Below are positions 1 through 58,860 of a stretch of DNA of 64,000 nt, one piece after another. Below the pieces are notes generated by a model. It had not been told where the DNA came from and did not search any database. It saw only the letters and a list, made by a program, of their open reading frames with translations. The position numbers and the translations under genes were made by a program. The stretch is from the NCBI GenBank assembly GCA_020152595.1, contig JAIGNY010000132.1, positions 1,916,001 to 1,980,000 on the forward strand, written 5' to 3'. Every line of letters starts with the position of its first letter. Position 1 is the stretch's first letter. This stretch comes from Chiridota heheva (lineage: Eukaryota > Echinodermata > Holothuroidea > Apodida > Chiridotidae).

Positions 1-598
1 ATAAGAGAGTGACGTTAATCACTCACGTGATAATGTAATATGAAAAATCAAGCATCATCATATCATGTTATTTATGTTATTACTAGGTCATATCTGCAGG
101 TGACTTCAAGGATAGAAAGGGCATTCTAATATAGCATCTCATCGCTTCAAGCATGGATAACAAATCCAAGTGGGAAGTAATAAACATGAATTTACAAGTA
201 TAAATAAACTCCGATCGAAACAACTTCGTTCTTACGCCTTACAACACATCGTCTTATTGTTTTCTATACTTTTTTCATCCGAACTTAGATGATTATTTGG
301 ATATCGTGTTAAAAACAATTGTTGCCTCCGTGACTTTTCCGAAATTCTTTTTCTTTTTCAAAACACCTAAAATGACAGTATGTGACAAGTTGATCCTGAT
401 TTTGTTTACATTAATATATTCGTTATCACCAAATTATATATGTTCCCGCGAGAACTTAAGGTGTCATGTTTTGAAATGTGACAAAGTTTTATCTTTCTGA
501 CATCCAAATGATTTTTAACAGAACCAAAGACTCAATCGAGCTTTTCTACATTTTTTTTTTTTTTGCCAAAGTATAGTGACTGTCATACATTTCGTATC
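1..598. other. AT-rich DNA without recognised feature
   Basis: I see no gene, tandem repeat or element end here. A 67-codon frame at 297-500 shows no family resemblance and is likely chance in AT-rich DNA. Confidence 0.5.
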
Positions 599-600
599 TA

Positions 601-1270
601 CCAACCCTCGACAATTGTGTATGCTTTGTGGTCGCCAACTCAGATGAAACTCATTTCCAAACTTTTTATCGCCAAAAAATACTTGCCAGTACAAAAAACT
701 GTTTTGAGATTATAATTTTGAATGAAAAAACCCTTCTTCTCTGTCTTGCATGAATAATTTAACTTCTTATTTTAATGACAACTCTTTTTAATCTAAAAAA
801 CGAACAAAAACAATTATCGAAATTAAAGAGTGATCGCAAAGCATACGATGATCATTTCCATCGGCTGATCAGGAAAATGATCATAGTTTTTTTTTTCCTT
901 TTTCCAGGCACCTCTCTGCATGTATTACGTGCGCTAACTGGCTAACGTCCATCTGTCAACTGTTGTGCAGTGATATGATATAGTACTTAAATTGTATCGG
1001 CGCCATGTGGCTTTGGGGAAAAGTTACAGTATGAAATTTCGGAATTAGGGCTGCCAGTAATTTTGGGGCAGAAAAGAAGAGAAGAATAAAGGTGTTTCAT
1101 GCTACCAAAATATTTTTCAGTTAATTTCTTACTCAAACAAACTTTTCTTTGGTCGCCAGGTGAGACATAAAGTGTTATCTCTTTGGCGAATAAAATCATC
1201 ATTTTTCAATTTTTGAGTCGCCAAGATTTAAGTGTTCATCGTCATGGCGACAGGAATTGTCGAGGGCTGG
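601..1270. mobile_element. MITE with terminal inverted repeats and TA flanks
   Basis: The left end reads CCAACCCTCGACAATT and the reverse complement of the right end reads CCAGCCCTCGACAATT. The repeats continue loosely inward, with GTCGCCA motifs on both sides. Both ends are flanked by TA (599-600 and 1271-1272), as expected for Tc1/mariner-type target duplication. The 670-bp interior has no credible reading frame, so this is a non-autonomous element. The superfamily rests only on the TA flanks, which can occur by chance in AT-rich DNA. Confidence 0.6.
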
Positions 1271-1272
1271 TA

Positions 1273-3487
1273 TTTATTGATCTAGAACTTAAATATTAGG
1301 TCGATGCGTGCTCAGGTGCGGATCCAGGGGCTACAATGCCCAACCCCGTGCTGCCACAAAAGTCGTAAACAAAAAAAAGGACTAACATTTAATAATTTTA
1401 GGAACAAATTTAAAACTATAAAAAACTCATCCCAAAGTCTTAAAACCAACTATTGTAACAAGGCCTATAGATAATTGTTTGGGGTGTGAATGAACATTTT
1501 CCGCCGACAAAAAGTCTCACATATATGACACCGCCTGGCGTCTTTGCTTTGCGTGAAATGCAAAGCCCCTTGATATGGGGAGTCTAGAGGCCCGCTTAAG
1601 GGCCATGTTGTGTTCCAGGGGCCCTGAGCTTTCATCAGTTGTAGGGGTCATAAATGGCTTTAAAGATCACTTGAATATTTACCAATACATAGGCATACAT
1701 GAAAACTAAGTAGAAATATCTTAATTTTTAAGCAGGCCTTTACACGTTTCTACTTGCAATTTCAAGCAAAGTTTCGGGATAAATTGATAATGAAAAATTC
1801 CAAATAATCTGGACTGCTCAAATGGAAGCACTGGCAGGAGAGATGCAACCCCTTCGTTGACACACCTTTCAATAGGGGACCCCTAATCAGTGGTGTAGTA
1901 ATTTAAAAGTAAGTAATAAACTTCATGGTCTCTTAGTGCGTCGCCGGAGAAATGGGTTTTTGTGCCACAGCAGTTAAGATGAAAAAGTTCAGGGCATTTG
2001 CACAATAAATTATGTGAAAAATAAATGCGCCTGCACATGCATAGTGTGCTTTAAACGGCACGGGGTTCAGGAACCCTGGAAGCTTTGAAGCCCCGTAACT
2101 ATATGAGAGTAACTATAGAATACCCTACAAATTGAAAGCTCCTTTTTTTTAAGGTGGAGTGCGTAGTCGTAGTGAGTTTCATTGTTTGTTTTATTAGGCC
2201 CTAACTTCCTAAGTCCCATATTATTTTCCTTTTTGGACAAAAAGTTTCAAGTTTACACTGGGGAAGCGTGCAACATGCATCCTAGTTTCTAGATATGCCT
2301 TTGCAATTTGCACAAACATGACGTAATGACAGCCAAAAGTACTAGCAATGGCTAGTTGAAAGTTTTAAATCTTAGTCATATAATTTGACAGTTGCGAAAT
2401 TTACTTTAAAAAAAACAACTATACATTAATCGTGGCATATATATACACAGCAGTTCAGATGGTGTCTGCCAACATATATGAATATGCAACGTTGAACATT
2501 CTAATGTTGTATATATATATTCATATCTAATTACGTCATTATTATTCTTGTACATGATTGGCTGAACAAATCTGTAATGGCAATTCTAGCCTGCAGAAAA
2601 AAAAGATGCGATCAGGGGCGATGTCTGCAGGTGGGGGAAGAGGAGGGTTGTACCCATATCATCATGTTGGCGGAACTTCTGCCTTTGAGGGGCTCTGTTT
2701 TCAGGAGGAGCCTGATGCATTTATCGAATTTTTCGAAATGAACTGTGAATAACAGAGTAGTTGACTCGAATCACTGACTTTGACTCAAGTCGGATTCAAG
2801 TCACATTTTCAATATATAGGGGCACTTATCGTTACGGTTAATGGGAGTAAAACACAATGTTTCGTGGTTTCGACAAAAATTGCACATACCTCAACTAAAA
2901 AATCCCAGGGATTTAATTATTTGCCATGATATTTCAGCAAAAGACAAAATTCCCGCATCCCGGAATGGCTGAAAACGAGGTATTTTTGTGGAAACAATCA
3001 GACCTTAAACGTTACGCTATATAAGTACCTATTATGCGAAAATGACATTTTCGCGTAATGAGAACTTTAATAGCGTGATGGACTGCGCGAAAGGCTCTTT
3101 TTTTTCCTGGTTTCCAGCCTGTTTTCACACTAATTTTTGGGCACTTTCTGGCCATTAGTCATAGTGGCTTACTTTTCAGTACTTTACAGCGACGTTACGC
3201 CATCATATAGCTTTAACTTGTGTGTTTGATACATAAATTAATATCCTTATGCATGGTGTACCATCTGTCACTGTATTCATGCACACTCATCATTCGTTAA
3301 CTGACATGGCCAAAATCAAAGCTCAATACGAATTTGTGATGACGTTTAGTATAATATTAAAATGTGTCATTCCACTTGAAATTTGATTACCTGTATACGT
3401 TTTGGGCGATATTTGACCGTTACACGGTTTTAGTACATAACCCACCCTCTGAACTTCACCAACAGAAAATTTGGGATAAGTAGTACA
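1273..3487. other. Unannotated AT-rich DNA
   Basis: No gene is supported. A 64-codon frame at 2558-2752 has low-complexity glycine and no recognisable motif. A small perfect hairpin with 9-bp arms (GCGAAAATG and its complement) lies at 3036-3054. The segment around 1319-1640 has C-rich and G-rich patches like those at ends of other repeats here, but I could not define termini. Confidence 0.4.
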
Positions 3488-3803
3488 GAGGCTCAGTGGT
3501 TAAGGAGTCATGCTTGTATACGAGGGATATACCAGGTTCGATTCCCATCGCGAGCCCTGCATTGTGTCCTTGAGCAAGACACCTGCTTGCCCCAGTACTT
3601 CCCCGGTACTTCCCCAGTACTTCCCCGGTACTTCACTCAGCTGAAAAATGAGTGCCAGCACTGCTGGAGACTTGACCTGCGATGGGCTGGCGTCTTGCCC
3701 ACGGGGAGTCATGTGCTCTCATTCGCTTACGCCAAGGAAACCGGAGAGAAGCACCGGCCTTCCCAAGGCCCGAGTAGGGATTTACCTTATTTTAGTCCCT
3801 TCT
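3488..3803 (+). mobile_element. tRNA-derived SINE (SINE-2), copy 1
   Basis: The head has a Pol III A-box-like stretch (GGCTCAGTGGTTAAGGAG) and a B box (GGTTCGATTCC) about 40 bases later. The body contains a block close to GCGATGGGCTGGCGTC that is shared with the second copy at 9.25 kb. GATGGACTGGCGTCC-type blocks are common in SINEs of marine animals as far as I recall. The body also has a 22-bp unit repeated twice (alternating CCAGTACTTCC and CCGGTACTTCC, 3590-3634). Translated frames across this region are not genes. Confidence 0.8.
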
Positions 3804-4911
3804 ATACAAAATATCAGTTGTGATACCCTATAATCTTTTTTTTTTTTTTAACCAAATATTTTCAGGCATATGGATAAAATTTACGTCATAAGATATGTTT
3901 TCGTCTTGAAATTCCATACCCTTTTTTAGATACAATCATCCTAAAGTCATCCTAAACGTATGATGCAACATGGTCTAAAAATGGCAATGTGAAGATGTAT
4001 TTCGAAAAAGAAAGGCCTACATATCCCTTTCATCGTTAAGCAGTTAAGTAACTTCTGATCTCCTTTATAACGCCAATAAAAGAGTCACTATATACTTTAC
4101 GAAATTTATTTACCCGGCATTGAAAATTTTGAATTTGACTCTATAATTTCATATTGCAGCACACGTAATTTCTTAAGTTTGTTCAAATACCAGGGCCGTT
4201 GGAAACCTCAAATTAATGAAGGTCGGGTGGGGGTGCCAAGTTTACATCAAATGTGATCGAAACATACAAGCTATGGAATTATTAGCAGTTAACGGCTTAC
4301 TTCGATATATAGGGTAACCCCCACACGTATGCATGTAATTTGTAGCATTTTAAAAGAAATTTGATTGAAGGATAATATTTCTAAAAGCTAGGTTTCGAAA
4401 ATATTGCTTTCCCTTTTTCGAATGGCTAAAGTAATTTTACTTTTTCCGAAAAATGTAGATTATAATCGGAAATACTGGAAGAAGGTATACCGTCAAATCA
4501 AAAAATAATTATTTTTTTCACCAGGAAGATGGGAAAAGGTCTAGCGCTGCCACTGAAATGAGAAGGGATGATTTCCAGGGGAAAGCCAGGGTTGAGCGGG
4601 GGAAATGCAAGAGACAGGTGAGCGAATTCTTCCCGTTAGTATGAAAAAAGAGGAAGCTATGTATACATACGGATATAAATGATAATATCGATGATAAAAA
4701 CAATATCTTGCTTAAACTGTGATATTGCAATTTAAGTAATTACAACGTTTTTAAGACTTAAATTGACCATAATTCAAGTTTTTGATGTTAGCTCTTGATT
4801 ATTTTTTTAATCATTTTTTGCTTAGAATTGTATGCACGTCAATTTAGAACGTTAGCTGGGCCTATTTCGAGCTCTGCGCATATTGACGTTTTTTGTGTGT
4901 ATAAAACCTGT
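3804..4911. other. Unannotated AT-rich DNA
   Basis: I see no gene or defined repeat. There are a poly-T run at 3836-3850 and a C-poor stretch around 4200-4260. A 70-codon minus-strand frame at 4518-4730 is hydrophobic and low-complexity and has no supporting features. Confidence 0.4.
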
Positions 4912-6650: not shown

Positions 6651-7117
6651 CTGGTACACCCTTGTCAGCTTGGTGCACGGAGATATATAATCTCCATGCT
6701 GGCGCAAGCACTTCCTATTCGTTCGACGCTCAGCTTTACGACTGTGCGACATTAAAATGAAATTGGCCCTGAGTTAACGTTTCCCAGTGTGTAAATTGAG
6801 GCCACTTATCTGTACCACTGATTAGTATGAACCATGAGTAGTATGTATCTTATCTCATTTTCAACTTTCCTTCAAGCTATAGAGTTATCATTGCTTTAAG
6901 GTGGACTATAGACCCATGACTGGTGAATTTTGCAAATATTAAGTGACCTGTTTTGCCTCTCGAATGGATCAAAATTTATTGTTTATGATTCTCAGATAAT
7001 TTCTTAGTTTAAATGTTGGTGTTAGAGAAATTTTGCATCTGTCCACAAGGTTAAAAAGCGTTGCTGAAGATTTGTGAGTTTCTGAAAAAATGCGCCCTAA
7101 ATTTTTGGTCTAGTGCC

Positions 7118-7396
7118 GACGACCGTCAATGAGTGAACACACAATTACAATGACTGGGTCGTCGCCTGCGTATTCGGTTATGGTAGTAACACTGCTATTA
7201 CGAAACGCTTAATATGACCCGAACGCGAACACAGGTACGACGTACGGACAAACATAATATCGACAACCGAGTCAATGTCCACGGCCTTTGATAACCAGTT
7301 GTGGTGCACTGGCGTGTCTACCCAACCCAGGTTTGAACCCAGGGCCTCGTGGTCTGTAGACATGTATGATAATCGCTACACTACAGTTAGTAGATA
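7118..7396 (-). mobile_element. tRNA-derived SINE (SINE-1), full-length copy
   Basis: On the minus strand the head contains an A-box region GTGTAGCGATTATCAT and a B box GGTTCAAACCTG, spaced as in a tRNA. Against a generic tRNA-Val the span from A box to the end of the T arm has equal length, so a tRNA-Val-like origin is plausible. The body ends in a GTC-rich tail. The copy is flanked by a perfect 8-bp duplication, CTAGTGCC, at 7110-7117 and 7397-7404. Other copies lie at 14.93, 27.83, 54.60 and 58.47 kb. Confidence 0.85.
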
Positions 7397-15449: not shown

Positions 15450-17778
15450 TATCTGAATCGGTTAAGCCGGCAAAAATCCTTCGAGAGGACATGAAAGTAT
15501 GAGTAAAAAAAACTAGTTAGCAATACAAGTGTTAGTAAGTTTAGCTTTGAAACAGTTGAGACTTATTGCATGTACAAATGTCTGACGGTAAAACATTCCA
15601 ATCCTAGCTTTAGTGTGTGAGGGAAGAAAGAGTGTTTATATACTTTCTTTTTGGCATAGCGAACCTAAAAATTAAGGTCATGATTATTTCTTGTATTACT
15701 ATTAGTTTTGACAGTGGGGATAAGTTCATCTTTATTGATGGCGACAAGATTCTTATTGATTTTATATAGCATATGTAGCCGGGTGTTGTATCTTCTTGTT
15801 TTTAGCAGGGGCCAATCTAATTCATGAAGCATGTTTTTTACACTAGATTTATAAAAGTAGTCTGCCATACAGAACATTCAAGTTTATCCACATCGCACTG
15901 GTGATGGGGGTCCCAGACTGCTGATACGTACTCAAGTACTGGCCCGACTAAAGCATTATTAGCAGTGGATTTAATGTCGGTGGGACAGTTTGAGAGGTTA
16001 CGTTTTAATAGGCCAAGTACAGAGTTAGCTCTTGGTTATGTTATGTATATGTTTATCCCATCTAAATTTATTATCAATTTCAACACCTAGGTACGGGTGG
16101 GAGTTGACATGTTTTAGTGGCTGGCTGCATAAGGTATAAACAGGTGATTTAAAGCATTTCTTAGAGGAAATTTACAATATTTAGCATTTAGAGAGGTTGA
16201 AATTCATTTGCCATTTGTTTTACCATTGATCAAGTTTGTTAAGATCATCTTGGAGGATTTGTTAGTCAGAGGGGTTATTAATTGTTCTGTACTCAAGGCA
16301 GTCATCAGCAAACAGTCTAACTATGCTGTTTATATTATCAGGGATGTCATTTACATATAAAAGGAAAAGTAATGGACCCAAAACAGTACCTTGTGGTACA
16401 CCAGATAAAACCTGTTTAGAATCAGAGATTTCACCATCACAGACAACACGCTGGATGCAGTTGTTGAGGAATGATGCAAACCAGGCCAGGAGATTTCCAT
16501 CAATGCCATAGACGGAAAGTTTGGATAACAGGCGCTGGTGTGGGACTTTATCAAAGGCTTTTGAGAAGTCAAGAATAGCCAAAGAGATGTTACTCTTTTG
16601 GTCAATTTGTTTAGAGATATCATTTATTGTTAAGAGGAGTTGTGTTTCAGTCGATCTTTTTGCACGGAAGCCATGTTGTAAATCAGTTAAGATATTATGC
16701 TCATCAAGGAGTTTTATCACATGTGAGTGGATTATATGCTCAAGGATTTTACTACAAATGCAGGTGAGTGAAATAGGTCTGTAATTAGCTGGGTTTTGTT
16801 TATCACCTTTTTTAAAAACGCTACATATGTTTGCTTCTTTCCACTTGTTAGGGATAGTACCATTATCGACAGAGGTTTGAAAGAGATCAGTTAGAATTTC
16901 ATAGAGGTCATCAGCATGTGTTTTTAGAAACCATGGTGGTATTTGGACATGAGGCTTTGTTGGGGTCTAGGTTATGCAGTTGCTTTTTGACACCTTCTGG
17001 GGTAATTATAAGTTGGTTTATTTTGCTGTTGGACAGTGGTTTACTTACAGGGATTTGGGAGGTGTTTTCTTCTGTGAAAACAACGAAAAACTGGTCATTT
17101 AGAATGTTAGCTTTAGTTTTACTGTCACTGCAGAGTTTACCATTATTTAGTAGATCAGACACACCTACAGAGTTACTTCTTAATCTTTTGATATAGGACC
17201 AGAATGCCTTTGGGTTTTCGTTAAGTGAGTTTTTAAGTTTATCACAGATGAAGGTGTTCCAGCTTCTTTGAGGTTTTTACGGACAGCCTTCCTAAAGCTT
17301 TTATAGGTAGTCCAGTCATTGGCTTGTTAATTAGTCTTAGCTTTTTTAAACAGTTTATGTTTTTTCCTGCAGAGACGGCATTGGATACGGGTGAACCAGG
17401 GCAGATTTAGTTTAGTTAAAGTGAATTTGTGAGGCGTGTTTTTATCAATAATCAGTTTAATTTCCTGTTCAAAGAAATTCCATTTTTCATCAACATCAAT
17501 GGAGTTATTGAATTGAGTATAATATTGCAGTTTAAATTTGGTCAGGTCTTCTTTTATTTGTTTTATATTAGCTTTTTTCTTTAAATAGATTTTACGTTTA
17601 GGCAACTTTTTACGAGGAGGGGAGATATTTAGGGTCAGTTCAACAATATCATGGTCACTTATACCGGGAATGACATTAGCTGAGGTAACAGCTGGTGAAT
17701 TGTTAGTAAAAACAAGATCAAGGATGTTGTTATCTCTGGTGGGTGACTGCACCATTTGTGTGAGATTGAATGAATTCT
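15450..17778 (-). mobile_element. 5'-truncated CR1/jockey-like LINE
   Basis: Minus-strand fragments follow LINE order. First is the C-terminal end of the endonuclease domain (17327-17780, with NILDLVFTNN and PGISDHDIV). Next is a linker with DPNKA (16911-17162). Then comes reverse transcriptase (16262-16720) with GFRAKRSTETQ, LDFSKAFDKVPH, SGVPQGTVLGPLLF and the catalytic LFADDC. The C-terminal tail (15665-15877) has WPLLKTRR..TRLHMLYKI. A 3' region ends near CCGATTCAGA. Frame changes and stops between blocks show it is dead. The 5' half is missing and the sequence joins a satellite fragment at about 17778. Confidence 0.9.
16262..16720 (-). pseudogene. Reverse transcriptase core of the LINE (broken)
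   Basis: A 152-codon open block covers the fingers and palm of a non-LTR reverse transcriptase. It has the FSKAFD block (first catalytic Asp region) near residue 52, GVPQGTVLGP near 105, and the FADD box at about 137-140. Flanking blocks lie in other frames, so no full protein is made. The family is clear; the clade (CR1 versus jockey) rests on remembered motif similarity. Confidence 0.9.
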
Positions 17779-26139: not shown

Positions 26140-27733
26140 AACCCTGATTTGTGGATTGTGTGTGCATACTAATTAGCCTATTTGCATAGCAATGAAAATA
26201 TTTGTATATGTGGTATAATCACTTGAATGAAAGTGGGTTCGATTTTGCTTAAACAAATGATCATACAGTATATGTGAAGAGCATTGTTCACACTTAATGG
26301 TGAGGTATAGTGTGCGTTTGCTGCAATAATGTTTGACCTGAGATCAAAAATATATGGCTTATGACTTACTAACTTCACATTTCTAGTTTTGTTATGATAT
26401 TGACATTCCTGACATGAATAGCAATCAAAATGTTTGTTTTGCCATGGATAAAGAAGCAGATAAAAGTTCTTGCTTCTAAAGAATGTTAAATTAGGGGTTT
26501 TGGAAATTTAAACAATAAGCAGAATGTGGGGTAAAAGATGACATGATGATAAAGTAACTGAAGGAATTAGGATGAGGTAATGTGGGACAGGGTGGGACAG
26601 GGTGGGATTGTATGTAGGGCAGTGTGCGGTGGGATGTATGTCAGGATGTGTTGGCATGTTAGACAGGGTGGATTGGCATGTGGAAAAGTATGGGTCGGCA
26701 TGTGGAACAGGGAGGGTTGGCATGTGGAACAGGGTGGGTTGGCATGTGGAATGGGGTGGGTTGGCATGTGGAACAGGGTGGGTTGGCATGTGGAATGGGG
26801 TGGGTTGGCATGTGGAACAGGGTGGGTTGGCATGTGGAACAGGGTGGGTTGGCATGTGGAACAGGGTGGGCCAGCATGTGGAACAGGGTGGGTTGGCATG
26901 TGGAACAGGGTGGGTTGGCATGTGGAACAGGGTGGGTTGGCATGTGGAACAGGGTGGGTTGGCATGTGGAACAGGGTGGGTCGACATGTAGGACAGGGCG
27001 AGATGGCATGTGGTGGAATGTTATCTGGATTTCAGTTGTGATGGCATGTAGGTCATGCAAGTGCTGGAATAACATACAGTATCTGGTTTTCAGGTGTGAT
27101 TGCATGGAGTATAGATGTGGGATGACAGGTGAGACAGGTTGGGATGGAATGTGAGACAGTCTGGAATATACATTATTAGTGGTGAGGGGATTTGTATCAT
27201 TTCTAATGTCTAGTTTGTCATACATTGAGCAATAGCAATATTGTTTTGCATAACTTTGCTTTAATGTTATTGTACATTTTTCATGCTGCTTGACACACAT
27301 TTTTCCTTAAATTGGAAGTTGCATTACTACAATCCAGAATGTAGTTCTGGGAATGTGTAGAAGCTGGGGGAGGGTATCGGTTGGAAAGGTGGTTGAATGG
27401 CATTCTTTCATTGACATTGGCAGGTCAGGGCCTCTCCTTTCTTTGTTATTCAATTGATAGAACTAAAAGAGGTGTTGCAGTTATAAAGACTGCTAGATTT
27501 TACATGTTTTCTGAGTTACTTGAGCATTTTTTGTCCTAAAATATCTAGGAAAACTCAAAAAATATTTTGAAGCTTGTAGTGCAAATGAGAATGTAAGTGC
27601 ATCTTTCAGAGCTCAAGTAATTTGAAATCATCTGCCCCTGCTACCCTATTTATGTATATACTTCTCTCTATAAGCCCATTCTCTACACTACAGGTAGCTT
27701 TGAATAGTCAAGCATACTGTCCTTCTGACAGTT
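26140..27733. repeat. Duplicated segment, copy 1 (partner at 52.64-54.03 kb)
   Basis: It begins with about one ~290-bp satellite unit (26150-26340). A unique part follows (CTTCACATTTCTAGTTTTG), then a 22-bp minisatellite, then a shared stretch ending CATACTGTCCTTCTGACAG. The same order occurs in the same orientation in copy 2, with many substitutions and a different number of minisatellite units. Confidence 0.85.
26580..27010. repeat. 22-bp minisatellite
   Basis: Unit GGCATGTGGAACAGGGTGGGTT. The central ~14 units are nearly identical and both edges are diverged. Because 22 is not a multiple of 3, all frames rotate through one 22-residue cycle, and several 130-210-codon frames arise on both strands. 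They are not credible genes. Confidence 0.95.
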
Positions 27734-27828: not shown

Positions 27829-28026
27829 CCAGTGCACCCACAACTGGTTATCAAAGGCCGTAGACATTGACTTGGTTGTCTATGTTATGTCTGTCCGTAC
27901 GTCATACCTGTGTTCTCGTCTGGGTTGTATTAAGCGTTTCGTGATAGCATTGTTTCTATCATAACCAATCACGCAGGTGACGACCCCGTCATTGTAATTG
28001 TATGTTCACTCACTCGTCGTTGTCGT
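27829..28026 (+). mobile_element. SINE-1, headless copy with target duplication
   Basis: It starts at CCAGTGCACCCACAACTGG and ends in GTCGTTGTCGT. A 10-bp direct repeat TGCCATTTTG flanks it at 27819-27828 and 28027-28036. The tRNA-like head is missing, yet the flanking repeat shows it inserted in this form. Confidence 0.85.
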
Positions 28027-33854: not shown

Positions 33855-35040
33855 ATTTGGGCCCTCTCAGCAGTCCAGTCCAATCCGGACCCTCTCAGCA
33901 GTCCAATCCGGGCCCTCTCAGCAGTCCAATCCGGGCCCTCTCAGCAGTCCAATCCGGGCCCTCTCAGCAGTCCAATCCGGGCCCTCTCAGCAGTCCAATC
34001 CGGGCCCTCTCAGCAGTCCAATCGGGCCCTCTCAGCAGTCCAATCTGGGCCCTCTCAGCAGTCGAATTCGGACCCTCCCAGCAGTCTAATTTGAGCCCTT
34101 TTAGCAATCTAATTTGAGCCCTCTCAGCAGTCTAATTTGAGCCCTCTCAGCAGTCTAATTTGAGCCCTCTCAGCAGTCCAATCCAGGCCCTCTCAGCAGT
34201 TCAATGTAGGCAGTCGAATTCGGGCCCTCTCAGCAGTCGAATTCGGACCCTCCCAGCAGTCAAATCCGGGGCCTCCCAGCGGTCTAATTTGAGCCCTCCC
34301 AGCAGTCTAATTTGAGCCCTTTCAGCAGTCTAATTTGAGCCCTCTCAGCAGTCTTATTTGAGCCCTCTCAGCAGTCTTATTTGAGCCCTCTCAGTAGTCT
34401 AATTTGAGCCCTCTCAGCAGTCTTATTTGAGCCCTCTCAGTAGTCTAATTTGAGCCGTCTCAGCAGTCTAATTTGAGCCCTCGCAGCAGTCTAATTTGAG
34501 CCCTCGCAGCAGTCCAATCCGGGCCTTCTCAGCAGTCCAATCTAGGCAGTCGAATTTTGGCCCTCTCAGCAGTCGAATTCGGACCCTCCCAGCAGTCCAA
34601 TCCGGGCCCTTTCAGCAGTCTAATTTGGGCCCTCGCAGCAGTCCAATATGGGCCCTCAGCAGTCTAATTCACACCCTCCCAGCAGTCAAATCCGGACCCT
34701 CCCAGCAGTCAAATCCGGGCCCTCCCAGCAGTCTAATTTGAGCCCTCCCAGCAGCCTAATTTGAGCCCTCTCAGCAGTCTAATTTGAGCCCTCCCAGCAG
34801 CCTAATTTGAGCCCTTCCAGCAGTCTAATTTGAGCCCTCCCAGCAGCCTAGTTTGAGCCCTCTCAGCAGTCTAATTTGAGCCCTCCCAGCAGCCTAATTT
34901 GAGCCCACTTAGCAGCCTAATTTGAGCCCTGTCAGCAGTCTAATTTGAGCCCTCTCAGCAGTCTAATTCGGGCCCTCCCAGTAGTCTAATTTGAGCCCTC
35001 TCAGCAGTCTAATTTGCGCCCTCTCAGCAGTCCAATTCAC
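33855..35040. repeat. 23-bp minisatellite
   Basis: About 50 units. The first third follows GGCCCTCTCAGCAGTCCAATCC, and later parts drift to GAGCCCTCTCAGCAGTCTAATTT, with a mixed zone at 34500-34720. The open frames of 70-90 codons over it come from the repeat. Confidence 0.95.
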
Positions 35041-37269: not shown

Positions 37270-39050
37270 AAATTCTAACAAAATTGTCTGTCACGGTTTG
37301 GGGGCAATTTGGAGGTTGTGAGTGACAGAAAAAAAAGTCTTATCAAAATCTGACACCCGGAAGTGGTTTAAAACTTGGTTAAATCCAAGATGGCTGCCGC
37401 GGACGCTGACCCTGAAAATAGGGTAAACGGCTGTAACTTTCTTAATATTTGTAATAGAACAATAGGCTTTGGTTCTACTCCTACATGGTTTTAAAGGTCA
37501 AACAACCCATTGCTACAGAAAGAATTGTGTCCTGATCCCGAAAATGGGTTCAAACTGGGTAAAATCCAACATGGCTGCCGCGGACGCTGGCCCTGGACCC
37601 TGAAAATAGGGTAAATGGCTGCAACTTCCTTCAAATTTAGGATAGAACAATTAGTTTTGCTTCTTCTCCATGGTTTTAAGGGTCAAGCAACTCATTACTG
37701 CAAAAAGAACTGTGATCTGATCCCGAAAGTGGGATAAAACTGGGTCAAATCCAAGATTGCTGCCGCGGCCCGGAACCCTGAAAATAGGGTAAACGGCTGT
37801 AACTCACCTAATATTTGGGATAGAACAATATTTTTGTTCTACTCCATGGTTTTAACAATTTAAGGGTCACGCTACTTAGTGCTGCAGAAAGAATAATGAC
37901 CTGACCTCGGAAGTGGATTAAAACTGGATCAAATCCAAGATGGTTGCCACGGACGCTGGCCTGGGACCCTGAAAATAGAGTAAACGGTTGTAACTTCCTT
38001 AATCTTCCTTAGTATTTGTGATAGAACAATGAGTTTGGGGTTTACTCCATGGCTGTAAGGGTCAGGCTATTCACTGCTGCAAACAAAATATGACTTGACC
38101 TACGGAAGTGGGTTAAAACTGCGTTAAAGTGAAGATGGTTGCCACCATCACACCCTGAGAATAGGGCAAACGGCTGTAACTTCATTAATATTGGGGATAG
38201 AACAATATGTTTTGTTCTACTCCATAGTTTTAAGGGTCAAAAACTCGTTTCTGCAGAAAGAATTATAACTTGAACTCTGGAAGTGGGTTGGAACTGGGTA
38301 AAATCCAACATGGCTGCCGCGGGCGCTGGCGCCCGGATACTGAAATTAGAGAAAACGGCTGTAACTTCCTTAATATTTGTGATAGAACCAACTTTTGTTC
38401 TACTCCATGGTTGTAAGGGTCAAGCAACTCATTGCTGTAGAAATGATAATGACCTGACCCCAGAAGTGGGTTACAACCGGGTCAAATCCAAGATGGCTGC
38501 CACGGCCCGGACCCTGAAAATAGGGTAAACGGCTGTAACTTCCTTAATATTTGGCAGTTTGGGACAGAACAATCATTTTTCTTTCTACGCCATGGTTTTA
38601 AGGGTGAAACAATTTGTTGCTTTCAATAGAATTCTGACCTGAACATTCAAACCTTAAATCAAAGATGGCGGCCAATATATGGCTGCCAACAATACAAAAT
38701 GAAGTCACCAGTGCTGTACCAATAACTCCCTTTGGAATTGATATAAGGCGGCAGTGTTTGCTTCGTATGGTTGCTATTATTTACCATTAATATGTTGACG
38801 AGAGGATAATTGCAACAACTCTGAACAGTTTCTTTTAGAGTAAAACTTTACTTACATGGTTCAAAACAATGAATGCCAAGAGTAGACTAATATTTAGTTT
38901 AAACTTTGATGCATAGTAAGTGTAACCACACACACTTGTCAAATAACATCATTAACCCATTTACACATGTTACTGCTAGGCAAAACATGTGTTAGATGTC
39001 CTTTGTATGTCCCAATAATATTAAACAGCTGGATTTATTAATTATGCTTT
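37270..39050 (+). repeat. Left inverted arm of composite element
   Basis: Its outer end has GAGTGACAGAAAAAAAAGTC, whose inverted match is GTGACAGAAAAAAAAATC at about 48040-48055. Its inner end has ACTTGTCAAATAACAT, AACCCATTT, GGCAAAACA, GATGTCCTTT and AGCTGGATTT, all matched inverted at 46990-47095. Between them lie ~180-bp tandem repeats. Confidence 0.8.
37340..38675 (+). repeat. ~180-bp tandem repeat (8 units) in left arm
   Basis: Units contain AAATCCAAGATGGCTGCCGC, CCCTGAAAATAGGGTAAACG, GCTGTAACTTCCTTAATATT, GATAGAACAAT, CTACTCCATGGTTTTAAGGG and TGCAGAAAGAATT. The ATGGCTGCC box recurs near 37389, 37567, 37754, 37936, 38130, 38307, 38490 and 38664, so spacing is 173-198 bp. AAGATGGC(T/G)GCC resembles the YY1 core. 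Confidence 0.9.
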
Positions 39051-39578: not shown

Positions 39579-39581
39579 TTA

Positions 39582-39762
39582 TAGTAGAGTCAAAATATGA
39601 AAAAAAGTGACCTTACCCCAAAAAAATTGCAAGAAAAGGTTTTTTGGCAGTTTTATTAACTATGGGGTCTGGAAAAGAACATATTAAAAGTTGGCATCAA
39701 TCGGATCTCCGGAAAGGGTTTAAATATGAGGTCATAAAAAAGATGGCCGCCGATATAAGAAA
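39582..39762 (+). repeat. Left terminal inverted repeat
   Basis: It pairs with 43768-43935. It has one ~10-bp extra stretch after TCAAAATATG compared with the right arm, and scattered mismatches. Confidence 0.85.
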
Positions 39763-39887
39763 TCGCTAGAAACTAGGCATAAGTCTGTAATTTAATAGTT
39801 TCTAATCATCGTAATAATGAAAATTATCACTAAAACTAAATATCTTGGCACCAGCATAATTTTTGAAACTTTTCTTGGCATCATCAA

Positions 39888-39962
39888 TAACGTCAGGACG
39901 TTATCTGTGACGTCAGGACGTGACCTGTGTTGTCATGACGTGATCTATCGCGTCAGAATATG
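39888..39962. promoter_or_regulatory. Left subterminal CRE-like cluster
   Basis: Five ACGTCA/TGACGT-type motifs in 75 bp, one a full TGACGTCA (39908-39915). A similar cluster lies at 43570-43655. They may be transposase-binding or ATF/CREB-like sites. Confidence 0.5.
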
Positions 39963-40157
39963 GTTTATTTTTTAATATGTGTGTTCCAGTCCAGATTTGA
40001 TGGCGCAGGGAGACATTTGATGATTTGAAAGAATTTCAAGTCATTTCTGAAGGTGGGACTTAAATTGATAGCAGTGATAACTCCATTACAAGTGGGGTTG
40101 GGGGTTCAAATGCACCATCACTTTTGATCAAGGTTTTTAATAGACAGTCTGTCTGCC

Positions 40158-43100
40158 ATGGGCTATTGCTCCTCATATAGTGAAGTGCAAAGGTTTGAGG
40201 AAAACGCCGCTTCTTCAGTGGCTCCTGATGTTTTAGGTGAGGACAAAGATATGCATGATATGATGCTTTTATTTGCCGCGGATAACGTTGACCACAACCT
40301 AATGACCCTGGATGGAAAGGGAACATTTCATGGTATGGGTATGGTAGCAGCCATAACACCAGGCACACGAAGCAGTCACACTATTCCGAGGAGAAAGATG
40401 TCTGACTTGAACATAGTTGATCAGACGAAGATTGAGATCAAGGATTACCGCTTCCCAAAGAACACTCTTCGTAGCATTAAGTTCACGTCTCTGCCACTTT
40501 TGAATGTTGTTAATCATAAGATTGATGTATTGTGGGAGGTGCCCTTCCGCTTCAAGCAAACACTACCAAATTGGCAAGGAGTGATGCACCTGCTACACAA
40601 GGACTGTCTCCACTCTGGACAATCATCAGTATTGTTCCTACCAATGATTGATATGAACCCTGGAGATAAGACATGTATCTTCTCTACACTCGACTATATA
40701 TGTGCTCTTGCTTCCAAGCACAGTGTCCCACCAATTGTAACCTTTGATCAGCCACTCTTTTGGAAAGCTTTTGAGATTATACATGAAGTTCAAGATGGTA
40801 GTCCACTCAGAGATGTTATTTTGTTATTGAGGAGCTTTCATACTTTCATGAATTTGTTGGGGGCCATAGGAACACTCATGGATGAAAGTGGACTAAGGGA
40901 AATCCTGAGACAGTGCATGGTGAAAACGCTGTAACTCATATGATGAGTGGCAAAGCTGTGCAACGTGCATTTCGTGAACATCTTCTTATTAAGCAGTGTC
41001 TCACGCATCAGATAGTGACCAAGGTAATTGAAGCCGATCCAAGTTTTGAAGATCTACTTAAAGAGCTGGGGAGATTGTATACTCAAAAGGAGACTAAGTT
41101 TAGATGCACTGCTGAAAGCAGACTGCATGGAAAGAATTTCCAATGCTCTCACCTCAAGAAAGTGTGAATTATCCAACAACTCAAAAACAAGCAAATTGTG
41201 GATTACTTATCAACGAATGTTGGGAGTTGGGTCATGGCAAATGCATCTCCATGCTATATATGACTGTTTGCCAATATTTGCTGCTGCTGGACACCCTAAC
41301 TATCTGAAGTCTGCTTATCTTTACTTACAGAAGATGAGGGATCTTGAAAGTGGAAAGTCCCCAGTGATTCAGAAATTCAAAAATGGATTCCATGTTATTC
41401 GACGCAGCAAAAATACTGGGCTGGCTTTAGTCCTGACTTAATGATCGAGCAGACACTAATGCGGTCGCTTAAAAGCACCGGTGGGCTAACAAGAGGAAGT
41501 GGCATGTCAGACCATCAGAGGGCCGTTTGGACAATGTCTGCCCCTGTATCTTCCGCCTACAACTACGCCATGCAGGAATTCTGTCAGACATCATATGCAA
41601 CAAGTGAACAGCACAAGAAGGCACCTGCTTCTCGTATGGACAGGGATATAAGAGACTTAGACAAACTTGCGACGAAGCTGGAACACTACTCTCCATTTTC
41701 CAATGAGGCAACCTTGCGCAACATTATCACAAGGATAAATGCTGATGAGGGTGTCAGTGTTGAAGAACTTTTCAATGTAGGCAGAGACACAGTAAAACAA
41801 ATGGAAGGACACCCAGTCTTCTCATATTCCCACAAAAAGAACACTAAAGTGAAGACATTAGCATCAGCTCAAGCTGTCAAAGTTACAGAGGATCGAACCA
41901 TTGATCCAGCTCTATTGTTTCAAAGGTTCCTTGTGGTATCACAGTCATATGATCTTTGCCTTGATGAAGTGATGCAATATGAGCCCTCCTCCTATCCACC
42001 ATCCTTATTTGAAGGAAAATATCTCTTGCGAAAACCAGATAAAGCACATCTTCTGGAAGTTTTGAAAGACCATGGAACTTCCTTATCAGATGGTGCTGTT
42101 CTTCAGTCCATTCCAAAGACTGATCACTATGTTCTTAACCGAGGTTCCCTCCTACATCGATTGAAATAGACCGAGGGGAGCACTTACACTTCAATTGCAG
42201 ATTCGTATGCATCTTTCACATCCGAACTGTATGGTAATGCCACTGTTGTCTTTGATGGGTACAATGGAAGACCATCCACAAAAGACAACACCCACCAAAG
42301 ACAAAGCCGAAGTCAGGTCACTAGCAAGGTCGACATTGTGGAGTCAACCAAATTTTCTGGGGAAAAAAGAGGATTTTCTTTCATACACAATGAATAAACA
42401 GGCCCTTATTAACCTGATGACATAATACTTGCGCCAGAAAGGCTGCAACGTTATTCAGGCTGAGGGTGATGCTGATGTCGACATCGTAAAAGCATCAATC
42501 ACAATGGCATCCTTCAAGTCAACAACTCTCATCGGGGAAAATACAGATCTTTTTGTTTTGCTCTTGTATCATGGAACTACGAATGACTGCAAAGACCTGT
42601 ACTTTAGATCAGACAAAGGTAAACCAAATGTGTATAGCATTAAAGTTTTGAAACTGTTACTAGGGGAAGAAGTGTGCTCTGATCTGTTGTTTGCCCATGC
42701 GTTTTCCAGTTGCGACACTACCTCACGAATTTTTGGGGTTGGAAAGAAGTCCATCTTCAGAAAGGTCATCAAGGGCGAATCTGTCTTGCGTGCTTGTTCC
42801 AAGATCTTTCGCACACCAAAGGCAAATCCAGAGACTGTAGAAACCACCGGCTGCAAACAAATGCTTCCATTGTTTGCTAAGACTCATTCTGACTCTCTGG
42901 CATCATTGCGCTACAGCTTCATTTGCAAAAAAGTGGCCACAGCAAAGACATTTGTGGCACCCGAAAGGCTGCCCCCAACAACATCAGCCACAAAACTTCA
43001 CTCACGGAGGGTATATCTTCAAGTTATGGTGTGGATGTGTACAGACGGTGGCATGGATCCTACAGACTGGGGCTGGAATGTACAAGGGGGTCAACTGATT

Positions 43101-43223
43101 CCACTCATGATGGACAAAAGCCCTGCTCCTGAAAGTCTGTTGAAAATGATACACTGCAACTGCTCGACAGGTTGCCGCACACTCAAATGTAGCTGCAAAA
43201 AACATGGCCTTGAATGTACCTAA
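40158..43223 (+). pseudogene. Broken gene for large PIN-like/CXC-domain protein
   Basis: I recall this as a multicopy uncharacterised family in marine invertebrates. N-terminal blocks in the first frame (40158-40934) are FAADNVDHN (residues 39-47), LDGKGTFHGMG and TFDQPLFWKA. The middle frames hold GSWQMHLHAIYDCLP and SLKSTGGLTRGSGMS. A nuclease-like segment follows with VVFDGYNG (about 42245), DADVDIV and GENTDLFVLLLYH (42534-42572); acidic residues in such blocks bind metal in PIN/FEN domains. It ends with a CNCSTGCRTLKCSCKKHG cysteine cluster (43156-43212). Four frame changes (near 40908, 41085, 41418, 42367) and stops at 42167, 42423 and 43221 disable it. The N-terminal part of the usual protein seems absent. 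Function in transposition is inferred from its position between inverted repeats. Confidence 0.8.
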
Positions 43224-43569
43224 GCCTGTGGACCTTGTCAAGAAGACACTTGTAAAATATATCCCTCAACCCAGTATCAGATGATGATGGTAATGAAGGC
43301 TGCATGTGACTGTAAAGGTAAAGCTGAAACACTAGAAATTACCAAACAAACCAATATGTGCATTTATGTCTTCTAATCTATAACTGCATAAGGAAAACAT
43401 TAAATGTCGATATTAATTCACATTAAATGCCGATATTAATTCATTAAGTGGTTGATGATGCTAAAATCTATACTGCAATGAACACGAATAGATGACAAAA
43501 AGTTAGCCAATAAAACCACAGCTCATCCAGGGCATCACAGTGAAAGAATCATGATATTAAGAAAAATAC

Positions 43570-43655
43570 ATGACATAATGACGTCATAGGACGTCATAGA
43601 TGACGTCATGGATGACGTCATAGATGACACTATCACAGCATAACGTCACACAGGT
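43570..43655. promoter_or_regulatory. Right subterminal CRE-like cluster
   Basis: Three perfect TGACGTCA palindromes (43579-43586, 43601-43608, 43613-43620) plus partial sites, several embedded in a TAGATGACGTCA(T/G)G-like tandem unit. A further one lies inside the terminal repeat (43793-43800). Confidence 0.6.
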
Positions 43656-43767
43656 ACATTGGTTAGATTAAAAAATTGACAATCATGTAAGATAATGATG
43701 CCTTAAACTTGATTTCATACTTAAAGGTGCCAGAAACCGTATGCAAATCATTGAAATTAAACATTTT

Positions 43768-43935
43768 ATTACATATTGGCAGCCATTTTGTATGACGTCA
43801 TAATTAGACCCTTTCCGGTGGTCAGATTTTTGCCAACTTTTAGTATGTTAATCGCCAGGTCAAATAGTACTAAAAAATGCAAAAAAACCTTTTCTTGCAA
43901 TTTTTTTGGGGTTATGTGGTATATTGACTCTACTA
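43768..43935 (-). repeat. Right terminal inverted repeat
   Basis: Inverted match of 39582-39762; it ends in TGACTCTACTA just before TTA. Confidence 0.85.
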
Positions 43936-44088
43936 TTACGTTAATTGTCGCATATGCATACATTCTCTCAGAGAGCATTTGAGTGGCGAAAGTTTAATTT
44001 ATCTGTCTATTTTCTAGCAAATAGTTACCACTAATTACCATTTATTATTATTATTCACGTTTCCCCGCGATGACACCCTCCCACACTT

Positions 44089-46952: not shown

Positions 46953-48060
46953 ACCGGGGATTCTCATGGAAGGAGGAGGTTAACAAATCCAGCTTTTTGA
47001 TGCTATTTGGACACACCTAAAGGACATCCGACACATCTGTTTTGCCCAAATGTTACATGCCTAAAATGGGTTAAAATGTTATTTGACAAGTTTGACCACC
47101 ATCTTTAATTTGTTTAAAGTTTAAATGGTCACGTCGTAATTATATTTACAGCAATGAATTGAAAAGAAGACAATCCGGTTACCGCTCCCGATCGGGAGAT
47201 CTCTAGATCGGAAGCGTGGACTGGTGGGGACCAAATGTATTGTTCTGTCCCAAATATTAAGGAAGATACAATCGTTAACCTAATTTTCAGGGTCCGGCGG
47301 TGGTGGCCTTCTCGGATTTGACTCAGTTTTTACCCACTTTTGGGATCAGATCACAATTCTTTCTACATCAATGACTTGCTTGACCCCTAACACTAGAAGC
47401 AATACCAAAACTCATTGTACTATCACACATTTTGAGGATGTTAGAGCCATTTACCCTATTTTCAGGGTCCGTTGGCAGCAGCCATCTTGAACATCCTGTT
47501 TTATGCTACTTCCGGGGATCAGGTCATAAATTAATCTCCACCAATGAGTTGCTTGATCCTTAAAACCATAGTAGAACCAACAACTATTGTTCTATCCCAA
47601 ACATTATATGACAGTCATTTGCCCAATTTTCAGGATCGACAACGGCCATCTTGGATTAAACCCAGTTTTAACTCCCTTCTAGGTGTCAGTTCAGAATTGT
47701 ATCGGTAGCAATGAGTTGCTTGACCCTTAAACCCACGAAGTAGAGACAAAAATTATTGTTCTATCTAAAATATTAAGGAAGTTACAGCCGTTTGCCCTAT
47801 TTTCAGGGTGCGGTGGTGGCAGTCTTCTTGAATTTAACCCAGTTTTAATCCACTTCCGAAAGTCAAGTCATACTTTTTTGCAGCAATGAGTAGCCTGCCC
47901 CTTAAAGCCATAGAGTAGAAACAAAACTCATTTTTCTATCCCAAATATTGGGGAAGTTTCAGCAAAAACGGGTCATCTGAAGCCTTTTTTGGATGTGACC
48001 CTGTTTTAACCCACTTCCGCGGTCAGAAATTAATAGATTTTTTTTTCTGTCACTCAGAGC
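46950..48060 (-). repeat. Right inverted arm of composite element
   Basis: Inverted counterpart of 37270-39050. It contains five ~170-bp units (ATCTTG/GGCCATC boxes near 47305, 47475, 47645, 47820 and 47972) against eight on the left. A 14-bp palindrome CTCCCGATCGGGAG lies at 47187-47200. Confidence 0.8.
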
Positions 48061-48850: not shown

Positions 48851-49117
48851 GGAACATAAAGGAATGTGAAATCACTGCAAGCCAAAGTGTCACCCCTTTG
48901 GAGCCTCTCAGAACTGGCAAAGGTTTTAAAGCAATATAGAGCAAGGTTAAAGTAATCGGCTATTTCACTTTCACACAATATTATAACAGAAACACATTGA
49001 CTAACTGACACAAGTATTCAACATCAAGTTCTATCCACTCATTCATAAGTTTCGTCATCCAGTAGCCACTTCTTGGGAAAATTTGCAAGTGTCAAAATGA
49101 AAATGATAAAAGGACCC

Positions 49118-50113
49118 GAGTAGCTCTATATCGACCGAGTGGCCTTTTATCGACCGAGTGGCCCTTTATCAAACGAGTGGCCCATTATTAACCGAGTGGC
49201 CCTTTATTGTCCGAGTGGCCCTTTATTGTCTGAGTGGCGCTGTATCGACCAAATGACATTTTATCGACCGAGTGGCCCTTTACCCACCGAGTGCTTCTTA
49301 TCGACCGAGTGCCCCTTTATCGACCGAGTGGGCTTTTTCGACCAAGTGGCCCTTTAACGACCGAGTCACCCTTACTCGACAAAGTGCCCCTTTATCGGCC
49401 GAGTGGGACTCTATCAACTAAGTGGGTCTTTTCGAACGAGTGAGCCTGTATCGACCAAGTGGCCTTTTATCGCCCAAATATGGACTTTTGTCAACGAGTG
49501 GTCCTTTATCGACCAAGTGCCCCTTATTGACCGAGTGCCCCTTTATCGACCGAGTGTCCCATTATCGACTTAGTTGCTGTTTTTGGACCGAGTGGCCTTT
49601 TATCAACCGAGTGGACCTTTATCGACCGAGTGACCATTTATCGACCGAATGGCCCTTTATAGACCGAGTGGTCCTTTATTTACCGAGTGGCCCTTTATCG
49701 ATCGAGTGGTCCTTTATCGACCGGGTGGCTCATTATAGACCGAGTGGTCCTTTAATTACCGAGTGGCCCTTTATCGACCGAGTGGCCCTTTATCGACCGA
49801 GTGGTCCTTTACCGACCGAGTGGCCCCTTACCGACCGAGTGGCTCTTTATACACCGAGTGGTACCGAACTTTATCGACCGATTGACTTTACCGACCGAGT
49901 GGCCCCTTACCGACCGAGTGGCTCTTTATACACCGAGTGGTACTTTAATTACCGAATGGCCCTTTATCGACCGATTGACCCTTTATCGACCGAGTGGCCC
50001 TTTACCGACCGAGTGGCTCTTTATAGACCGAGTGGTACTTTAATTACCGAGTGGCCCTTTATCGACCGAGTGGCCCTTTATCGACCGAGTGGCTCTTTAC
50101 CGACCGGGTGGCC
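49118..50113. repeat. 19-bp minisatellite
   Basis: About 50 units of CCCTTTATCGACCGAGTGG. A 19-residue cycle (containing LYRPSGPLSTEW) appears in all plus frames, giving a 247-codon frame at 49422-50165. I read this as a minisatellite rather than a gene because three frames stay open equally and indels of single units are common. Confidence 0.95.
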
Positions 50114-58261: not shown

Positions 58262-58860
58262 CTGAGTCTGAATCGGTTAAGTCGGCAAAAATCCTGCAAG
58301 AGGACACGAACGCCAACCGAGCGTAAAAAGTATGAGTAAATAAAAAAATAAAAAAATAACAGCTAGTTAGCAATACAAGTGTTAGTAAGTTTAGCTTTGA
58401 AACAGTTCAGACTTGGTGCATGTACAATGTCTGATGGTAAAGCATTTCAATCCTTTAGTGTGTGAGAGAGAGAGAGAGAGAGAGTTGAACACACAATTAC
58501 AATGACGGGGTCGTCGCCTGCGTATTCGGTTATGATAGTACAAATGCTATCACGAAACGCTTAATACGACCCGGACGAGAACACAGGTACGACGTACGGA
58601 CAGACATAACATCGACAACCAAGTCAATGTCCACGGCCTTTGATAACCAGTTGTGGTGCACTGGCGTGTCTACCCACCCCAGGATTGAACCCGGGGCCTC
58701 GTGGTCTGTAGACAGGTGTGATAACCGCTACACCACAGTAGGTAGATGGGAAGAAAGAGTGTTTATATACATTCTTTATAGCACAGGGAACCTGGAAATT
58801 AAGGTCATGATTATTTCTTGTATAAGTTCTGACGGTGGCGATAAGTACGGGGATTTGAAA
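58262..58860 (-). mobile_element. 3' tail of the CR1/jockey-like LINE, copy 2, interrupted
   Basis: 58262-58466 and 58749-58860 match 15450-15620 and 15620-15725 of the first LINE (AGTAAGTTTAGCTTTGAAAC, ATGTCTGA.GGTAAA, AAATTAAGGTCATGATTA). The two parts are separated by a SINE-1 insertion. Severely 5'-truncated. Confidence 0.85.
58467..58748 (-). mobile_element. SINE-1 inserted in LINE tail
   Basis: Starts with an (AG)n tail and TTGAACACACAATTAC and ends after the tRNA-like head (CTACACCACAGTAGG). The uninterrupted sequence GTGTGTGAGGGAAGAAAGAG at about 15611 gives the empty site. Confidence 0.85.

Follow-up and report, generated by a model that had tools for sequence, protein, structure and literature searches.

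Does a broken gene enclosed by inverted repeats in the genome of the holothuroid Chiridota heheva belong to a mobile element, and if so, to which kind? The question is raised by positions 39582-43935 of a 64,000-nucleotide stretch, hereafter the window (assembly GCA_020152595.1, contig JAIGNY010000132.1, positions 1,916,001 to 1,980,000), in which an earlier note made from the letters alone had described terminal inverted repeats, matching TTA flanks and a single interrupted gene, and had proposed a mobile element whose protein might be a new recombinase or its partner. The window comes from an assembly that totals 1.1 Gb in 3744 contigs, and copies found across that assembly establish that the element is a genuine transposon family. 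The copy in the window is probably an internally deleted, non-autonomous member of a cut-and-paste family, for which the Academ superfamily, and within it an AcademX-like (nuclease-bearing) lineage, is the most probable home.

Genomic copies and their target-site duplications

A search of the genome with the whole element, in which 35 of 390 candidates were scored so that match counts are lower bounds, returned at least 99 matching stretches, including at least 19 end-to-end matches with the window's own among them (18 at element positions 1-4354 and one at 1-4351; 92-100% identity). Loci were then fetched from 20 places and, later, from 13 more. In the first 20, where tips were accepted with up to two mismatches each, both tips were found in 17, and 15 of these carried an exact 3-bp duplication (TAT, CAA, ATA, TTA, AGT, TCA, AAA, TAA, GAC, ATT, TTC, ATA, TTA, TGT and TAA); an extension of the duplication to 4 bp was seen in none of the 20. 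In the further 13, where tips were sought with a short list of patterns, both were seen in six loci, with exact duplications in five (ATA, CGA, TCA, AAA and GTG). Overall, with the window included, 21 of the 24 copies with both ends show an exact 3-bp duplication, against about 2% expected by chance from base composition. As these duplications are of mixed sequence, they indicate a transposon that makes a 3-bp duplication and has no fixed target triplet. The gene, the ends and the 3-bp length foreseen for other copies were thus recovered, and TTA as a specific or fixed target has to be abandoned.

Three fetched loci were left out of the duplication scoring: L013, without a detectable left tip, L028, which is the same copy as L030, and L027, whose right tip has three mismatches. 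Seven more in which the pattern search missed one tip (L031, L034, L036-L039 and L042) stand outside the count, and L002-L009, which coincide with loci that were later refetched or with the window copy, were given no separate count. One additional copy with a decayed left tip (L046) has ATA on both flanks. An empty site was sought among the fetched loci only; two of 2421 matches spanned the junction, and both were self-matches of a locus and were judged to be artefacts.

In addition, a genome search with 273 residues of the protein, in which 141 of 748 candidates were scored and counts are again lower bounds, yielded at least 148 matching stretches at 47-100% identity. Three low-identity places were read. 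In the first (L045, 65%), the inverted repeats agree at 82% across 100 bp, their tips are TAGTCGGGTC and GACCCAACTA, and the duplication is CAT/CAT; in the second (L043, 57%), they agree at 70% across 118 bp, their tips are TAGGTGAGTC and GACTCAAGTA, and the flanks read CAC/CGC. An alignment of the outermost 180 bp at each end shows conserved blocks common to the window copy, L045 and L043. The gene and related ends are therefore kept together in two of the three divergent relatives. Taken with the copies across the genome that have the same ends, gene and 3-bp duplications, this supports the proposal of a mobile element as the carrier of the gene. L046, listed at 66%, was set aside as a divergent relative, as it belongs to the same family (76-92% in tblastn). 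Inside the gene of L043, eleven 52-bp tandem copies (3918-4487 of that locus) overlap the coding sequence. Another relative of the gene lies on the window's own contig at 1989293-1990018, about 9 kb past the window's right end.

Layout of the element and its long and deleted forms

The ends and non-coding features of the element are as follows, in positions of the window.

39579..39581, no strand: left target-site duplication TTA, read in the sequence
39582..39756, + strand: left terminal inverted repeat, tip TAGTAGAGTCAA, defined by pairing with the right end; the same tip occurs in copies
39872..39956: left subterminal array, four 25-nt copies with 20-bp spacing and ACGTCA-type sites; a tandem-repeat scan also gives 39890-39946
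40066..40069: internal-deletion junction, where N-terminal coding sequence of about 1.25 kb is present in most long copies
43574..43628, no strand: right subterminal array, 12-bp units with TGACGTCA palindromes
43773..43935, - strand: right terminal inverted repeat, tip TTGACTCTACTA, defined by pairing with the left end
43936..43938, no strand: right target-site duplication TTA, read in the sequence

Both the inverted repeats and the TTA flanks of the earlier note were recovered. The repeats are imperfect and about 165-175 bp long; 39615-39756 pairs in inverted orientation with 43773-43912 at 80.3% over 142 nt (1.1e-30), and the outermost 20 nt pair at 90%. They score 147, whereas none of 425 randomly placed segment pairs of about equal spacing in the window scores above 33, and no second copy of the element was found within the window. 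Five of the window's eight TGACGTCA sites, which we take to be of CREB/ATF type, lie inside the element, one of them within the right inverted repeat. The subterminal arrays are possible promoter or protein-binding sites. L045 and L043 each show a single TGACGTCA site and no tandem array of them, so such arrays are probably no feature of the wider family.

Seven loci (L030-L036) align to the window copy in two blocks, from the left tip to element position 418 or 484 and from 489 onward, with an insert of 1,033 to 2,262 bp between the blocks (1,251-1,260 bp in five of the seven). Four of these loci measure 5,574-5,657 bp from tip to tip; the right tip of L030 falls outside its aligned portion. 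The extra stretch reads as N-terminal coding sequence that continues the same gene and contains C-x2-C and H-x4-C motifs. Because copies of about 5.6 kb carry about 1.25 kb more of the N-terminal coding sequence, the window copy is read as a deletion derivative. The same junction spacing occurs in 21 other short copies that were aligned; as the fetched sample was chosen by similarity to the short form, the ratio of long to short copies in it is uninformative about the genome.

Copies in a 29-row alignment, which excludes L013, L028 and L037-L039, differ pairwise by a median of 4.5%. The window copy, L010 and L040 differ from one another by only 0.6-0.7% and have four in-frame stops in common, and these near-identical copies sit at distinct sites with the duplications TTA, TAT and AAA, respectively. 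As the same stops recur at other sites, a broken copy of the window type was probably mobilised recently in trans.

The encoded protein, and other repeats of the window

A single gene on the + strand occupies the interior of the element. As the earlier note had it, this gene is broken by stops and frame changes, and its N-terminus has in addition been removed by the internal deletion at about 40066-40069. The pieces that can be followed are listed below.

40128..40931, + strand: gene piece 1, with ADNVDH (40278), TFDQPL (40740) and the FH in RSFHTFM (LRSFHTFM at 40827), proposed as the first Asp, second Asp and His of a DDE core
40886..41164, + strand: gene piece 2, an open reading frame in another frame
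41028..41438, + strand: gene piece 3, in another frame, which may hold a helical-looking insertion
41348..42166, + strand: gene piece 4, with the Glu of EQTLMRSLK at about 41447-41449, the proposed third catalytic residue
42170..42394, + strand: gene piece 5, with VVFDGY (42245), the putative first acidic block of the nuclease-like domain
42351..43220, + strand: gene piece 6, one stop read through, with AEGDAD (42459), IGENTDL (42531), FSSCDTTS (42702) and FGVGKK (42732) as FEN1/EXO1-like acidic blocks and the following loop; cysteine cluster from 43149
43221..43373, + strand: cysteine cluster continued past an in-frame stop in the same frame

The GENTDLFVLLLYH segment and the terminal cysteine cluster named by the earlier note are both present in the window gene. 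The cluster, which we presume to be of the CXC type, ends the protein and extends beyond the last stop; it has no Pfam match. Judged by its reading frames, the window copy is a dead deletion derivative that has lost the capacity to encode a functional protein.

The earlier note had recognised no DDE core. In the copy alignment, ADNVDH, TFDQPL and LGSFHTFM are conserved, and these motifs together with EQTLMRSLK are kept in the divergent relatives where they could be aligned, decayed exceptions such as L044 (TFVQLL in place of TFDQPL) aside; the proposed Glu is kept in L043, L044 and L045. These motifs may supply the D, D, His and E residues of a DDE core that contains a helical insertion, a possibility that changes the earlier assessment while leaving the fold a prediction. 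Superfamilies with a C/DxxH signature, described in one study, are offered as a parallel for a DDE core of this kind (PMC9587614). A structural model predicted from the single sequence places a helix-strand-helix-strand-helix run around TFDQPL and FH with modest local confidence, the model being poor overall (mean predicted local distance difference test, pLDDT, 43).

Downstream of these motifs, the C-terminal part has VFDGY, AEGDAD, IGEDTDL, GCDTTS and FGVGKK as its commonest forms among the copies. In a comparison with a profile built from human FEN1, EXO1 and GEN1, the piece with its first block joined ranked fourth of 3001 sequences, the other 3000 being shuffles, with four acidic blocks in order, as is a feature of the FEN1/XPG nuclease superfamily. 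The reverse test was clear for EXO1 (none of 1000 shuffles as high). A profile-profile comparison gave a local score of 26.0, above all 600 column shuffles (maximum 23.3), and another alignment setting, run without shuffles, gave a probability of 47%. The C-terminal domain is thus likely, though not proven, to be a FEN/EXO-like nuclease. It is like FEN1, EXO1 and GEN1 in the order of the four acidic blocks and in a glycine-rich loop after the last, and no counterpart of FEN1's most N-terminal Asp was recognised in the element protein. It differs from them in being without a Pfam or PDB sequence match and in being joined to a transposase-like N-terminal half and the cysteine cluster. The window copy has lost one of the nuclease acids by decay, reading IGENTDL where 20 of the 29 aligned copies read IGEDTDL.

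Viral contigs and bacterial and archaeal genomes yielded no accepted relative of the protein. A single weak hit on a 112-kb contig from the viral set (L001; 33% over 77 residues) was judged to be due to chance after its reading frames were listed.

Elsewhere in the window, a 185-bp tandem repeat of the CCGGAAGTGGGTTAAAACTGGG type occupies 37350-38554 and has inverted relatives nearby at 47296-47879; it was also recognised by eye in another contig (842-940 and 5260-5684 of L044), as a dispersed satellite-like repeat. A reverse transcriptase piece (Pfam RVT_1) lies on the minus strand at 16262-16966. Interspersed repeats that are 86-92% alike occur in both orientations at 7117-7304, 27838-28025 and 58486-58656, and large minisatellites with 23-, 19- and 22-bp units occur at 33890-35037, 49116-50113 and 26642-27013, respectively.

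Classification and competing explanations

Academ elements encode a single protein, and the nuclease of AcademX is of the XPG type; Kapitonov and Jurka in 2010 and Kojima in 2020 reportedly described the superfamily and the AcademX lineage. The element of C. heheva likewise has one protein, with its gene between terminal inverted repeats. According to one study, AcademH makes duplications of 9 or 10 bp and AcademX of 3 or 4 bp, a difference seemingly related to the encoded helicase or nuclease (PMC10045372). The exact 3-bp duplications of 21 of 24 copies and the nuclease-like domain, the latter recognised at the level of motifs with shuffle tests that were partly weaker or mixed, agree with AcademX. 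The full length near 5.6 kb is also like that of Academ, which, according to a mollusc survey, was amplified in bivalves and whose curated elements average 5,565 bp (PMC10294476). The fit to AcademX is drawn from this agreement in duplication length, nuclease and element length. AcademH, with its longer duplications and helicase, would share only the superfamily name if the element is Academ, and no helicase profile was matched by the protein in scans of Pfam/NCBIfam-type libraries. A new family within a known superfamily is most likely, and a new recombinase is unlikely because the nuclease-bearing AcademX lineage with its 3-4 bp duplications has already been described (PMC10045372).

Under this classification, the single protein would be the transposase. 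Its N-terminal cysteine/histidine part would bind the ends, and an RNase H-like DDE core (the Asp of ADNVDH, the Asp of TFDQPL and the Glu of EQTLMRSLK, with a helical insertion after the Phe-His) would cut and join. The C-terminal FEN1/EXO1-like nuclease may trim or process DNA strands when the element excises or inserts, the CXC cluster may bind DNA, and the subterminal arrays are perhaps extra protein-binding sites. The window copy would be moved by protein supplied from other copies.

Several results weigh against this assignment. The duplication fails in L014 (ATG/ATA), L017 (ATA/CAT) and L030 (AAA/CTA), and the flanks differ in L027 (ATT/TAA), which lies outside the scored set with three mismatches in its right tip. 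For L044 (47%) no pair of ends was found, its internal inverted matches resembling a dispersed repeat, and the proposed Glu is missing from two copies of the same family (L018 and L032). Among the loci examined, no copy with the whole gene open was seen. No protein match rose above the curated cut-off in Pfam or NCBIfam, matches in PHROGs were at chance level (E 0.08 or worse), and those in PDB had E 0.99 or were absent. Leaving out the joined first block lowered the score of the nuclease piece from 5.2 to 2.2 bits, the reverse test was weaker for GEN1 (11 of 1000 shuffles at or above), and it left FEN1 unreported while 708 of 1000 FEN1 shuffles were reported; the local probability given by HHalign itself was only 6%. 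A fold search with the pLDDT-43 single-sequence model gave no match below E 0.1, and the model for a PIN-like fold was also poor (mean pLDDT 32), so both the DDE and the nuclease folds remain predicted only. Finally, the likeness to AcademX is one of described traits, namely duplication length, nuclease and element length.

The predicted status of the DDE fold, the conserved acidic blocks and a protein that the libraries leave unnamed would also suit an undescribed eukaryotic superfamily in which a FEN/EXO-type nuclease with an unknown N-terminal domain cuts or joins without any DDE core. We consider this unlikely. Conservation extends to the N-terminal half, where, decayed single copies aside, the divergent relatives retain the D, D, FH and E motifs. 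DDE enzymes typically leave a short duplication of fixed length beside inverted ends. An AcademX with a nuclease is, moreover, already on record (PMC10045372).

Duplications of 3 bp are likewise made by PIF/Harbinger, so the gene could be a passenger of an element of that or another 3-bp superfamily. The window's TTA suits the TWA-kind target preference that we take Harbinger to have, but the element shows no such preference, its duplications being as mixed as CAA, AGT, GAC and TGT. Library scans matched neither a Harbinger transposase profile nor another known transposase profile, the extra stretch of the long forms reads as the same gene continued, and the divergent relatives, which were read for this gene only, carry it as well; a passenger gene is accordingly quite improbable. 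The number of gene-like stretches in the genome (at least 148) might instead suggest a host multigene family lying between chance inverted repeats, or repeats that spread with the gene by segmental duplication. That explanation is refuted by the exact 3-bp duplications at the tips of 21 of 24 copies, and the flanks differ around near-identical copies; we give it almost no credence.

To our knowledge, the nuclease-bearing Academ lineage is biochemically unstudied. For the AcademX-like family proposed here, one genome offers the ends, the duplications and both longer and deleted forms as a concrete case. If this reading is true, a family of multi-copy proteins labelled 'uncharacterized', of the kind that the earlier note mentions, would be explained as the gene of a recently active transposon, and such gene models could be masked.

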